From: Dolichospermum flos-aquae CCAP 1403/13F
GTDB taxonomy: Bacteria; Cyanobacteriota; Cyanobacteriia; Cyanobacteriales; Nostocaceae
DNA length: 64,000 bases
Reading direction: 5' to 3'
Assembly (NCBI RefSeq): GCF_012516395.1
Contig: NZ_CP051206.1
Span: forward strand, 2,214,501 to 2,278,500
The position numbers and the translations under genes were made by a program. This document shows, piece by piece, positions 6,382 to 40,345 of the stretch (its first letter is position 1; each line of letters opens with the position of its first letter). The notes beneath the pieces are model-generated. The model was not told where the DNA came from. It ran no database searches and saw nothing but the letters and a program-made list of their open reading frames with translations.

Positions 6382-6735
6382 TTATAAATTCTCATAAACT
6401 TCATCATCATTTCGCTTACCAACTCGGAAAATTTGAATTTCCTCCTCTTGAATTTTATAGAGAATACGAAACTCTCCCAGGGCAAACGCACCTAAATTCT
6501 GTAATCCATGCCCAGCAAGGGTTTTAACTTTTAGTTACAAAACTTAACAATCGTCAAAACCTTTGTCCAGTAAGCATTCTAAAAATAAGATGCGCTTGCC
6601 CTGGAAACTCTCCCTGATCTACTCGATAAAGATCAGGATAGCCTTGTCAATTAATTGCTGAAAAACTTGCTCGATATGTTCTTTAGCAATTTTAGTATTT
6701 GTGGATTTATTGGTTATTTCTACGTTTGGCATCAT
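6382..6735 (-). pseudogene. Decayed RelE-family toxin gene split by a MITE
   Basis: Reading leftward from 6735, an ATG frame (MMPNVEITNKS) resembles the N-terminus of RelE-type toxins but soon runs into a stop. In another frame, and beyond an inserted 124-bp element, the C-terminal core follows (YRVDQ, then GEFRILYKIQEEE, IFRVGKRNDD and EVYENL before a TAA at 6382). Removing the element does not restore one frame, so the gene also carries a deletion or frameshift. No full antitoxin accompanies it. Confidence 0.75.
6479..6602. mobile_element. 124-bp MITE (copy 1) with flanking target duplication
   Basis: The element starts AGGGCAAACGCACCTA and ends with the inverted AAGATGCGCTTGCCCT. A near-identical 124-bp copy lies at 39879-40002. 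The flanks carry a direct repeat, GAAACTCTCCC at 6468-6478 and again at 6604-6614 (11 of 12 positions if a 12-bp duplication is assumed). It has no open frame, so it must have been moved by a transposase encoded elsewhere. It sits inside a degraded RelE-type toxin gene. Confidence 0.88.
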
Positions 6736-37214: not shown

Positions 37215-38297
37215 ATGACAACTACCTTACAACAGCGCGAAAGTGCTAACGTATGGAATCGCTTCTGCGAATGGATCACCAGCACTGACAACCGTTTATA
37301 TATCGGTTGGTTCGGAGTATTAATGATCCCTACCCTCCTCGCTGCAATTACTTGCTTTGTAATTGCATTTATCGCTGCTCCTCCCGTGGACATTGACGGT
37401 ATCCGCGAACCAGTTGCAGGTTCTCTACTCTACGGAAACAACATCATCTCCGGTGCAGTAGTTCCTTCCTCCAACGCTATCGGTTTACACTTCTACCCTA
37501 TTTGGGAATCTGCTTCTTTAGATGAGTGGTTGTATAACGGCGGTCCTTACCAGTTAGTAGTATTCCACTTCTTGATCGGCGTATTCTGCTACCTCGGTCG
37601 TGAATGGGAACTTTCTTACCGCTTAGGAATGCGTCCTTGGATTTGCCTAGCATTCTCCGCACCTGTAGCTGCTGCTACCGCAGTATTCTTGATCTACCCA
37701 ATCGGTCAAGGTTCATTCTCAGACGGTATGCCTTTAGGTATCTCTGGAACATTCAACTTCATGATCGTGTTCCAAGCAGAACACAACATCTTGATGCACC
37801 CCTTCCATATGTTAGGTGTAGCTGGTGTCTTCGGTGGTTCTTTGTTCTCTGCAATGCACGGTTCACTTGTGACTTCTTCCTTGGTTAAAGAAACAACCGA
37901 AAACGAATCACAAAACTACGGTTATAAATTCGGTCAAGAAGAAGAAACCTATAACATCGTTGCTGCTCACGGTTACTTCGGTCGCTTGATTTTCCAATAC
38001 GCTTCCTTCAACAACAGCCGTCAACTACACTTCTTACTAGCTGCTTGGCCTGTAATTGGTATCTGGTTCACAGCTTTGGGTGTTAGCACAATGGCGTTTA
38101 ACCTCAACGGTTTTAACTTCAACCAATCCGTCATGGATTCTCAAGGTCGCGTTATTGCTACCTGGGCTGACGTAATCAACCGCGCTAACTTAGGTATGGA
38201 AGTAATGCACGAGCGTAACGCTCACAACTTCCCTCTAGATTTGGCTGCTGCTGATGTTGCTCCTGTTGCTTTAAGCGCTCCTGCAATCAACGGTTAA
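37215..38297 (+). CDS. psbA: Photosystem II reaction-centre protein D1
   Basis: The 360-residue protein has the five membrane helices of D1 with the expected ligands: Tyr161 region, Asp170 in FSDGMP, His190 in FQAEHN, His198 in HPFHMLG and the QB pocket around [12 protein letters not shown]. Counting gives Glu at position 130 (LGREWEL), the form linked to the high-light or stress-type D1:2 copies rather than the Gln130 D1:1 form. The C-terminus after Ala344 is a 16-residue extension removed by CtpA. Codons are strongly biased, as in highly expressed genes. An intrinsic terminator follows. Confidence 0.98.
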
Positions 38298-38316: not shown

Positions 38317-38350
38317 TAAAAAACGCTCTCCACGAGGGGGGCGTTTTTAT
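38317..38350 (+). terminator. Intrinsic terminator of psbA
   Basis: AAAAAACGCTCTC and GGGGGGCGTTTTT form a stem around a short CACGA loop, with T-run, 20 bases after the stop codon. Confidence 0.9.
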
Positions 38351-38443: not shown

Positions 38444-39709
38444 ATGAGTCAAATAAAAGTTAAAAATTTCGGACCAATTAAATCAGGTTTCGCAGAAAAT
38501 AATGGATTTATAGACATTCGTAAAATTACTGTTTTTATCGGTAATCAAGGAACGGGAAAAAGTAGTATCGCTAAACTAATTTCAACATTAAGTTGGTTGG
38601 AAAAACAGTTGTATCGTGGAAATTTAGAAATAAAATATGTAAAAAACTATAATAGGTTTATTAGAACATATTGTAACTATCATAACTTGAAGAATTATTT
38701 CTTGCCAGAAACTGAAATTGAATATGTAGGAAATGCTTTTTCTTTTTATTTCCAAGAGGGAAAATTAAAAGTTTTTCCTATGATTAAACAATTAGATCTG
38801 TTTTCTAATAATAATAGTCCCCAAGAATATATTGTACCTAAAATTATGTATGTACCAGCAGAAAGAAACTTTTTTAGTGTTGTCAAGGGGGCTGAAAAAG
38901 TAAAAGAATTACCTCAATCATTATCTACTTTTTTTGAGGAATTAGAGCGTTCACAGCAGGAATTATCAGAAAGTTTGACTTTACCAGTGGGTGATGTAAA
39001 GTTGGAATTTGATCAAAAAGATAATACTTTAAATATTATAGGAAGTGATTATAAATTAAATATTTCCGAATCTTCAAGCGGGTTTCAATCTTTTATTCCT
39101 TTGTTTTTAGTTTCTAGAAATATTGCGTTATCTATTGGTCAAAATCAAGATTCTTCCCAAAATGAACTTAGTGGAGAAGAACAACAAAGATTAAAAACAG
39201 AAATTGAAAAAATCCTATCCAATGATAATCTTTCTGAGGAATTTAAAAAAGCTGCTTTGGAAGTATTATCTTCTAAATATAAAAATGAATGTTTTTTAAA
39301 TATTGTTGAAGAAATAGAACAAAATCTGTTTCCCAAATCGCAAAAAGACGTTTTATATAAATTGTTAGAATTTGCTAACCTTACAGAAGGTAATACACTA
39401 ATTCTCACTACCCACAGTCCTTATATTATTAATTATCTGACATTAGCAATCAAGGGATATCAGGTTTTACAGAAAATTCTAGATTTACCAAACAGCAATT
39501 TACTAAAGGAACAACTAGAAAATATTGTTCCTCAAGCATCTTGTGTATCTGATGAGGATTCAATTGTATATGAATTAACAGAGACAGGGGAAATTATCAA
39601 ACTTTCTACTTATGAAGGATTACCTACTGATGAAAATTATCTCAATTCTTTCTTAGCAGAGACTAATAACCTTTTTGATGATTTACTAGAAATTGAGGAA
39701 CAAATATGA
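38444..39709 (+). CDS. AAA-type ATPase (AAA_15/21-like) of a second two-gene cassette
   Basis: This 421-residue protein starts MSQIKVKNFGPIKSG, as in SMC/OLD-like ATPases. Walker A is FIGNQGTGKSS (~31-41), a degenerate signature SSSGFQS is near residue 210, the Walker B region reads NIVEEIEQNLFP (~287), where EEPEQ is usual, and the H-loop is TTHSPYI (~322). The C-terminal ~90 residues are specific to this protein. It overlaps the next gene by 4 bases (ATGA). The pairing with a nuclease-like partner fits a defence-type module, but this is architecture-based inference. Composition is AT-richer than neighbouring psbA. Confidence 0.8.
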   Translation: MSQIKVKNFGPIKSGFAENNGFIDIRKITVFIGNQGTGKSSIAKLISTLSWLEKQLYRGNLEIKYVKNYNRFIRTYCNYHNLKNYFLPETEIEYVGNAFSFYFQEGKLKVFPMIKQLDLFSNNNSPQEYIVPKIMYVPAERNFFSVVKGAEKVKELPQSLSTFFEELERSQQELSESLTLPVGDVKLEFDQKDNTLNIIGSDYKLNISESSSGFQSFIPLFLVSRNIALSIGQNQDSSQNELSGEEQQRLKTEIEKILSNDNLSEEFKKAALEVLSSKYKNECFLNIVEEIEQNLFPKSQKDVLYKLLEFANLTEGNTLILTTHSPYIINYLTLAIKGYQVLQKILDLPNSNLLKEQLENIVPQASCVSDEDSIVYELTETGEIIKLSTYEGLPTDENYLNSFLAETNNLFDDLLEIEEQI

Positions 39710-40345
39710 GTATAAATTTTTTTGATGCTAATTGTCAAAGTCAGACAAATCAGTATAAATTTGGACTTTGTGATGATCCTAACGAAGATCCTGCTTATAT
39801 TGATACTGATATTGATGATTGTAGCAAATGGATTGCTATTGTTGAAAATAATCAAGAAATAGAGGTGATATTTACCGCAGGGCAAACGCACCTAAATTCT
39901 GTAATCCATGCCCAGCAAGGGTTTCAACCTTTAGTTACAAAAATTAACAATCGTCAAAACCTTTGTCCAGTAAGCATTCTAAAAATAAGATGCGCTTGCC
40001 CTGATATTTACCGCTATTGATAATTGTATTGAAATTCTCAGATCAGATGGTACAATGGATAACCGTTGTGATGGTATGCTGACTTACAACAATCATCTTA
40101 TTTTCGTGGAATTAAAAGAGAAAAATTATAGAAATAATTGGGTTGTAAAGGGAGAGAAACAATTAAAAAATACAATTAATGTTTTTATTGCAAATCATGA
40201 TTTAGAAATTTATAAATCTAAAAAGGCATATATAGCTAATAACAAAAAACCTAATTTTCAGTCTTCACAAATTACAAGAATGGATAAATTTAAGGATGAA
40301 ACAGGTTTTAGATTAATCATCCAAAACACCATAGAAATTTCCTAA
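39706..40345 (+). pseudogene. PD-(D/E)XK-like partner gene, split by a MITE
   Basis: As it stands the frame MSINFFDANC runs only to 40020 and a second fragment starts at 40055. Deleting the 124-bp element plus one 12-bp duplication (136 bases) leaves 504 bases, an uninterrupted 167-residue frame. The rebuilt protein has Asp77 (RCDGMLTY), Glu90 and Lys92 (IFVELKEK), the spacing of a PD-(D/E)XK nuclease core. It is translationally coupled to the upstream ATPase. Both halves are otherwise undamaged, so the insertion looks recent. Confidence 0.85.
39879..40002. mobile_element. 124-bp MITE (copy 2) with 12-bp target duplication
   Basis: It starts AGGGCAAACGCACCTA, ends AAGATGCGCTTGCCCT and is flanked on both sides by GATATTTACCGC (39867-39878 and 40003-40014). 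Over its whole length it is nearly identical to the copy at 6479-6602. The terminal inverted repeats match at about 16 of 20 positions. It has no coding capacity. Confidence 0.92.

Follow-up and report, generated by a model that had tools for sequence, protein, structure and literature searches.

What is the two-gene cassette on the forward strand at positions 38444–40345 of the window analysed here, 64 kb of the 5.22-Mb, two-contig genome of Dolichospermum flos-aquae CCAP 1403/13F, and is it still complete in this strain? The cassette comprises (i) gene A, encoding an intact ATPase, and (ii) gene B, encoding a small PD-(D/E)XK-like nuclease and interrupted by a 126-bp miniature inverted-repeat transposable element (MITE). 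By its profile matches the pair belongs to the already catalogued candidate anti-phage family PDC-M29, and the cassette is probably a PDC-M29 two-gene anti-phage type system, an abortive-infection ATPase–nuclease pair left without its effector in this strain.

Family Assignment of the Gene Pair

Gene A matches the PDC-M29A model of PADLOC-DB 2.0.0 (2023) over residues 1–420 (E=4.5e-180; profile positions 1–409 of 410), and the pieces of gene B, next to it, match PDC-M29B. The initial annotation had proposed an 'undescribed' or 'unnamed' system; since PADLOC models for the pair exist (PDLC04562 and PDLC04563/04564), this novelty is rejected, and the general kind is known as WonAB (PMC12137116). 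The remainder of that interpretation, an ATPase with a conserved PD-(D/E)XK-like partner, stands. The PDC-M29 entry carries no description; in a paper using PADLOC, 'PDC' denotes a phage defence candidate (PMC11514479). The name PDC-M29 occurs in none of the full texts of a collection of openly licensed papers without bioRxiv preprints, and a published functional test of PDC-M29 was not found there. The PDC models themselves presumably derive from a bioRxiv preprint.

The next best PADLOC families for gene A are AriA (1.5e-15), PDC-M56A, and NsnB, and its Pfam matches above cut-off include AAA_15 (E=2.8e-13) and AAA_21; gene B matches no Pfam family above cut-off, and neither gene matches an NCBIfam family above its cut-offs. 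HNH, TOPRIM, and UvrD are not among the Pfam matches of gene A, of the gene B pieces, or of the intact B protein of locus L049, in agreement with the earlier statement that the partner is none of the three. PD-T4-4_B does not match the window's own B pieces in PADLOC. Comparison with viral sequences and structures gave (i) weak PHROGs matches only, to function-unknown families, (ii) no match in a viral structure library at E ≤0.001, (iii) no match among phage records in a search that covered gene B only, and (iv) no confirmed relative among viral contigs (67 and 22 pattern stretches).

Gene A Encodes an Intact ABC-Type ATPase

Gene A (38444–39709) encodes a 421-amino-acid (aa) OLD/PtuA-like ABC ATPase, identified from the list of open reading frames (ORFs), PADLOC, and Pfam AAA_15, with PtuA of the Septu system as the best structural match to its fold. 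The protein displays four motifs, which we take to be (i) a Walker A, GNQGTGKS, at residues 33–40 (38540–38563), with G33, Q35, G38, K39, and S40 invariant in 17/17 relatives; (ii) an ABC-signature-like ESSSGFQS, at residues 209–216 (39068–39091), with S212, G213, and S216 invariant in the aligned relatives; (iii) the end of a Walker B, EEIEQN, at residues 289–294 (39308–39325), all six residues being invariant in 17/17; and (iv) an H-loop, TTHSP, at residues 322–326 (39407–39421), with T323, H324, S325, and P326 invariant in the aligned relatives. Full-length identity amounts to 85–91% when compared with loci of Dolichospermum, Aphanizomenon, Cuspidothrix, and Anabaena, and the C-terminal region is conserved among the relatives.

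Gene B Is Split by a MITE

The stop codon of gene A and the start codon of gene B overlap as ATGA (39706–39709). The 5' piece of gene B (39706–39877) encodes the N-terminal ~57 residues of PDC-M29B (E=2.2e-21, profile positions 1–56 of 164). Homology to intact relatives ends at residue 58 of this piece and restarts in another frame in the 3' piece (40016–40345), which holds the nuclease core and an ATG-initiated ORF of 96 aa from position 40055 (40055–40342; PDC-M29B E=9.8e-39, profile positions 70–163 of 164). The intervening MITE (39878–40003, no strand assigned) has imperfect terminal inverted repeats beginning CAGGGCAA and, as comparison of its flanks revealed, lies between two copies of a 10-bp target duplication, ATATTTACCG, at 39868–39877 (left) and 40004–40013 (right). 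Insert and duplication together amount to 136 bp, so that the gene B frame is shifted.

The element is recognized by its genome-wide copies, with at least 40 matches in the own genome including the gene B site (40 of 62 candidates scored). The best-scoring nine other copies outside the window are all identical over the 126 bp, and seven of these nine are flanked by a duplication of 9–10 bp. The window contains another copy at 6478–6603, 97.6% identical and with its own 10-bp target duplication.

For the assignment of gene B, the queries were intact relatives or the two pieces taken separately, with the insert left in place. Read against the alignment of relatives, the codons of D77, E90, and K92 of the PD-(D/E)XK-like core are found at 40070–40072, 40109–40111, and 40115–40117, and the intact gene B of L043 (168 aa, 19.6 kDa) has these residues at the very same positions. 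E90, K92, and Q108 are invariant in all 17 aligned intact relatives, as are D23 and D60 in the alignment, and position 77 carries D in 13 of them and E in the other 4. Gene B shows both the motif and the topology of such a nuclease, and its match to the PD-(D/E)XK fold is weak to moderate. The Walker A and H-loop positions, the ATGA overlap, the interruption by a MITE with its target duplication, and the spacing of the three nuclease residues are all as the initial annotation had described them.

Variable Patches in Both Proteins

Pairwise amino acid difference among eight proteins of the group (mean 0.127) reveals a hypervariable patch in gene A at residues ~61–128 (38624–38828), with values by segment of 0.375 (61–80), 0.125 (81–100), 0.652 (101–120), and 0.273 (121–140). 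Gene B is most variable behind the ExK motif, with 0.285 (101–120) and 0.330 (141–160), a modest contrast to its mean of 0.171 (n=5). The C-terminal part of gene B (40120–40340) is divergent in both DNA identity and synonymous difference (pS): compared with three relatives, the pS of the window's gene B is 0–0.06 in the 5' piece and 0.36–0.41 in the 3' piece, and DNA identity to five relatives is 86.6–93.8% at 40023–40119, 67–84.5% at 40120–40216, and 77–87% at 40217–40316, with L043 and L041 being 99% alike across the same stretch of B (40120–40216). This divergence may represent a recombination mosaic, and the variable patches of both proteins could be surfaces for sensing or for escape from inhibitors.

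Conservation of the Pair and Decay of Gene B

Conservation was followed in two overlapping sets, 291 genomes of the order and 21 named loci, the counts of which are not additive; L012 and L042, for instance, give an identical B protein. B sequence lies directly behind A in 20 of the 21 named loci that encode an A relative, so that the two genes are conserved neighbors; L051, where A runs into an N, is the sole exception. A full-length open B frame is found in 17 of the 20, the other three being L046, with B cut short after 28 residues, L054, with a broken B frame, and L059, where parts of A and B are missing. Where B is intact, 11 of 17 loci have an overlap with A of exactly 4 bases and five have one of 1, 7, 10, 11, or 17 bases, and L056 has a 36-base gap behind a shortened A frame.

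Within the order, a strong A match (E ≤1e-49) occurs in 15 of the 291 genomes. B is present at 14 of these 15 loci, although L019, L020, and L022 have only a truncated or partial one, and the fifteenth (L023) runs off the contig, as judged by coordinates. The record titles of A relatives include Sphingobacterium, Ferruginibacter, Pedobacter, and Altibacter, which we take to be Bacteroidota, and Beggiatoa and Thioploca, which we take to be Gammaproteobacteria. Among plasmids, A matches three records and B one, with A and B side by side on a Persicobacter plasmid.

Within the genus, gene A is found in 7 of 16 genomes and its frame is open in all seven, with B full length in five, split by the MITE in the window copy, and reduced to model positions 1–34 in G775. 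G154 (L011) keeps an open B frame in which G occupies the D77 position, a replacement that likely entails loss of the active site. B is in this way broken or altered in its active site in at least three of the seven carriers and A in none, G774 and G778 being outside the active-site comparison. A pattern of 'A kept, B lost' is only suggestive, since at least 3/7 against 0/7 is too few to prove selection, and L059, which has lost parts of both A and B, and L022, a remnant of both genes, speak against it.

Genomic Neighborhood

In the neighborhood described here, psbA, HIT, GNAT, and comF were named by eye. The psbA ORF ends at 38297, upstream of the cassette, and is followed by a terminator-like hairpin with a T run on the forward strand (38326–38346; three overlapping hits at one place vs 0.6 expected in the region, standard deviation 0.8), which suggests that the cassette probably has a promoter of its own, separate from psbA. 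Among seven close named relatives, psbA is likewise upstream in L039, L040, L042, L046, and L059, where the flank shows it, and GNAT and comF are downstream in six, L059 excepted; G154, G246, and G256 likewise have GNAT behind B. In the cassette-free G240, no more than 90 bp separate HIT from GNAT, and psbA was not found in the 7.2 kb fetched; G181 has other sequence separating the two genes, and the stretch of G286 that was fetched showed no HIT.

The flanks were scanned as a set (58 ORFs of 13 loci) and, for 30 of these ORFs, singly with PADLOC, with no background control. Clustering with known defence genes, raised in the initial annotation, is seen at several sites: the pair lies (i) inside a type I restriction system in L057, with hsdM/hsdS on one side and hsdR on the other, (ii) downstream of hsdM and hsdS and upstream of AbiLi in L053, (iii) upstream of a NACHT protein in L058, (iv) upstream of hsdM in L045, (v) 2.6 kb downstream of a GajB-like helicase in L050, and (vi) downstream of a PDC-S02 candidate in L056.

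The three Microcystis loci L044, L045, and L058 share a 901-aa ORF upstream, a phycobilisome linker as scanned in L044, and differ in their downstream genes, such as the hsdM and NACHT genes above, resembling a variable defence site. A location behind strongly expressed photosynthesis genes (psbA and the Microcystis phycobilisome linker) was considered and is not claimed. The cyanobacterial loci L013, L014, L020, and L021 have other ORFs upstream.

A Wider Set of ATPase-Coupled Nucleases

PDC-M29B matches (E ≤0.001) extend to 29 of 388 genomes of the class. Inspection of the weaker loci L078–L097 (n=20) disclosed an A-like ATPase frame adjoining the B-like ORF in 16 (profile E ≤1.3e-11) and no such frame in L078, L079, L088, and L095. 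The B proteins of these loci form size groups of ~145, ~160, and ~200 aa, with one of 183 aa, and in PADLOC the best model of group B proteins is PDC-M29B in 5/5 scanned (E 5.1e-6 to 2.4e-10). Profile comparison, which covered the ~145- and ~200-aa groups, the ~160-aa group being aligned only, gave PDC-M29B 97.0% over 107 columns with the ~145-aa group, a cyanobacterial family of 144 aa, and 96.6% over 106 columns with the ~200-aa group, the CD and ExK motifs being in register in both, compared with 0.1% for the control of PDC-M29B against the A profile. The PD-T4-4_B profile finds proteins in 7 of the 291 genomes, with an A-like ATPase beside five of the seven, and the comparison of these proteins with the ~145-aa group is weak (74.7% over 34 columns).

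Tentatively, and as a possibility short of an even chance, PDC-M29, the WonB-sized pairs, and the ~200-aa nuclease family may belong together in a single superfamily of defence pairs, each an ABC ATPase with a PD-(D/E)XK nuclease. Two cyanobacterial lineages (nucleases of ~160 and ~200 aa) would be included, for which PADLOC 2.0.0 offers no close model, as judged from the representatives tested. Under the same tentative proposal, the variable patches of PDC-M29, namely the ATPase insert at ~61–128 and the nuclease's C-terminal half, would mark the surfaces used to sense triggers from the phage or to evade its inhibitors, and hosts would repeatedly retain the ATPase while disarming the nuclease.

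The genome itself holds a second, distant pair of an ATPase and a ~200-aa-type nuclease (504 and 196 aa), both frames open (G000:C1:3152071-3154169; L131:3072-5170). In Sphingobacterium siyangense (L049:5001-8549), a PDC-M29 pair is directly followed by another ATPase–nuclease pair, whose nuclease has 148 aa and falls in the WonB-sized group. L098, inspected separately as a natural A–B fusion in G142, was rejected, since this locus, among the weakest matches, reads as a different AAA-type protein.

Proposed Function and Rival Explanations

Directly observed are the conserved gene pair, the motifs and fold of the ATPase, the motif and topology of the nuclease with a weak to moderate fold match, and the PADLOC family membership; from these we infer complex formation, sensing, target, and defence role of PDC-M29 as follows. 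The gene A product, an ABC/OLD-class ATPase, probably dimerizes around ATP and would both sense infection and control the nuclease; the gene B product, a small PD-(D/E)XK nuclease effector, would be switched on and cut nucleic acid of the infected cell, the response most likely being abortive, as in WonAB. In this strain the MITE interrupts B behind about residue 57 and shifts its frame while A still reads through, and the split and frame shift most likely leave the local module without its normal effector. Several observations weigh against this picture or its extension to the wider set: (i) A matches 82 of the 291 genomes at E ≤0.001, the rest beyond the 15 strong ones being weak ATPase matches; (ii) the site shared by the close relatives (psbA, GNAT, comF) holds ordinary genes; (iii) neighbors are ordinary in L052 (nonribosomal peptide synthetase), L055 (M20 peptidase, GcvT), and L050 (SufB adjoining A); (iv) most other singly scanned flanking ORFs have no PADLOC match at strict limits; and (v) the three scanned ATPases of the ~145-, ~160-, and ~200-aa groups match AriA best and PDC-M29A second.

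The loss of the local effector would be averted if the 3' half of B were re-initiated at the ATG at 40055, yielding a 96-aa nuclease core and a system altered rather than dead. The ORF (40055–40345) is open and holds the D77, E90, K92, and Q108 positions, and promoter-like matches lie at 39996–40024, spanning the MITE's right end, and at 40029–40056; however, these are not clearly above chance (17 vs 12.2 expected, standard deviation 3.5), the second ends inside the start codon, the product would be without its N-terminal ~72 residues, among them D23 and D60, both invariant, and the translational overlap with gene A is gone, so that re-initiation appears unlikely. A toxin–antitoxin pair, in which A simply neutralizes B, so that the loss of B does no harm and A lingers, would fit a small nuclease behind a larger partner and the state of the genus carriers, with A open in seven of seven, B broken in two, and D77 changed to G in a third. 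Its conserved ATPase motifs argue against so passive a role for gene A, as does the WonAB precedent, where overproduced WonB is toxic only with active WonA and simple sequestration is ruled out according to the authors (PMC12137116), and we regard this alternative as quite improbable. As for a housekeeping DNA-repair or regulatory pair of Rad50/RecF-like type with no defence role, the pair is patchy (strong in 15/291 genomes of the order, 7/16 of the genus), missing beside the GNAT gene of relatives, spread over distant phyla, and found once between hsdMS and hsdR and once near hsdMS and AbiLi, all of which make such a role very improbable.

The preferred explanation, a PDC-M29 defence system with a lost local effector, makes a hypothesis that can be tested on named residues out of an entry catalogued without description. 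The new elements are the PD-(D/E)XK assignment for PDC-M29B, its connection by profile comparison with two further families of ATPase-coupled nucleases, the distribution of PDC-M29 in the genus together with the damage to B, and the hypervariable ATPase patch, a concrete place to seek the phage trigger; several ATPase–nuclease pairs are also linked to one validated kind, WonAB. For this genome, defence counts based on gene A only would include a system with a split effector gene.

Comparison with Known Systems

WonAB, validated in 2025, pairs an ABC/OLD-type ATPase with a PD-(D/E)xK nuclease; point changes in either abolish protection, and the system acts by abortive infection, with translation inhibited in the authors' model (PMC12137116). 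The authors link it to the 'OLD-ABC ATPase + novel REase' operon of an ABC-ATPase survey and to PD-T4-4, as a larger family so far uncharacterised (PMC12137116). The window's cassette resembles WonAB in being a two-gene operon of an ABC/OLD-type ATPase and a small partner with conserved PD-(D/E)xK residues, in the motif set of gene A (Walker A, signature, Walker B, H-loop), and in K92 of gene B, the likely counterpart of K71, which WonB needs for function, and differs in nuclease size (168 aa and 19.6 kDa in L043 vs 16.1 kDa for WonB). The link was tested by sequence only through the size-matched cyanobacterial family: the ~145-aa group is WonB-sized (16.6 kDa for the L084 B protein vs 16.1 kDa), and the Walker lysine of the L084 ATPase is K34, as in WonA, a hint and not a homology test, because K34 is found in the ~160-aa group too and the histidine of the H-loop is at 338 vs 333 in WonA.

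PD-T4-4 is similar in its ATPase and nuclease and in the (C/N)D ... E(L/M)K pattern of PD-T4-4_B-like proteins, the profile comparison of which with PDC-M29B is weak (58.5% over 42 columns). Septu (PtuAB) shares the ATPase fold, PtuA being the best structural match to gene A, and differs in its nuclease, PtuB being of HNH type whereas the B pieces and the intact L049 B protein have no HNH match. For PARIS, OLD, and Gabija, the PADLOC matches cover the ATPase part of these families, among the matches listed, and the difference lies in gene A having no TOPRIM match and no UvrD partner. Compared with PDC-M29 itself, gene A matches from end to end and gene B in its pieces, the relatives keep the gene order and usually the overlap, and there is no family-level difference, only this copy having its B split by a MITE.
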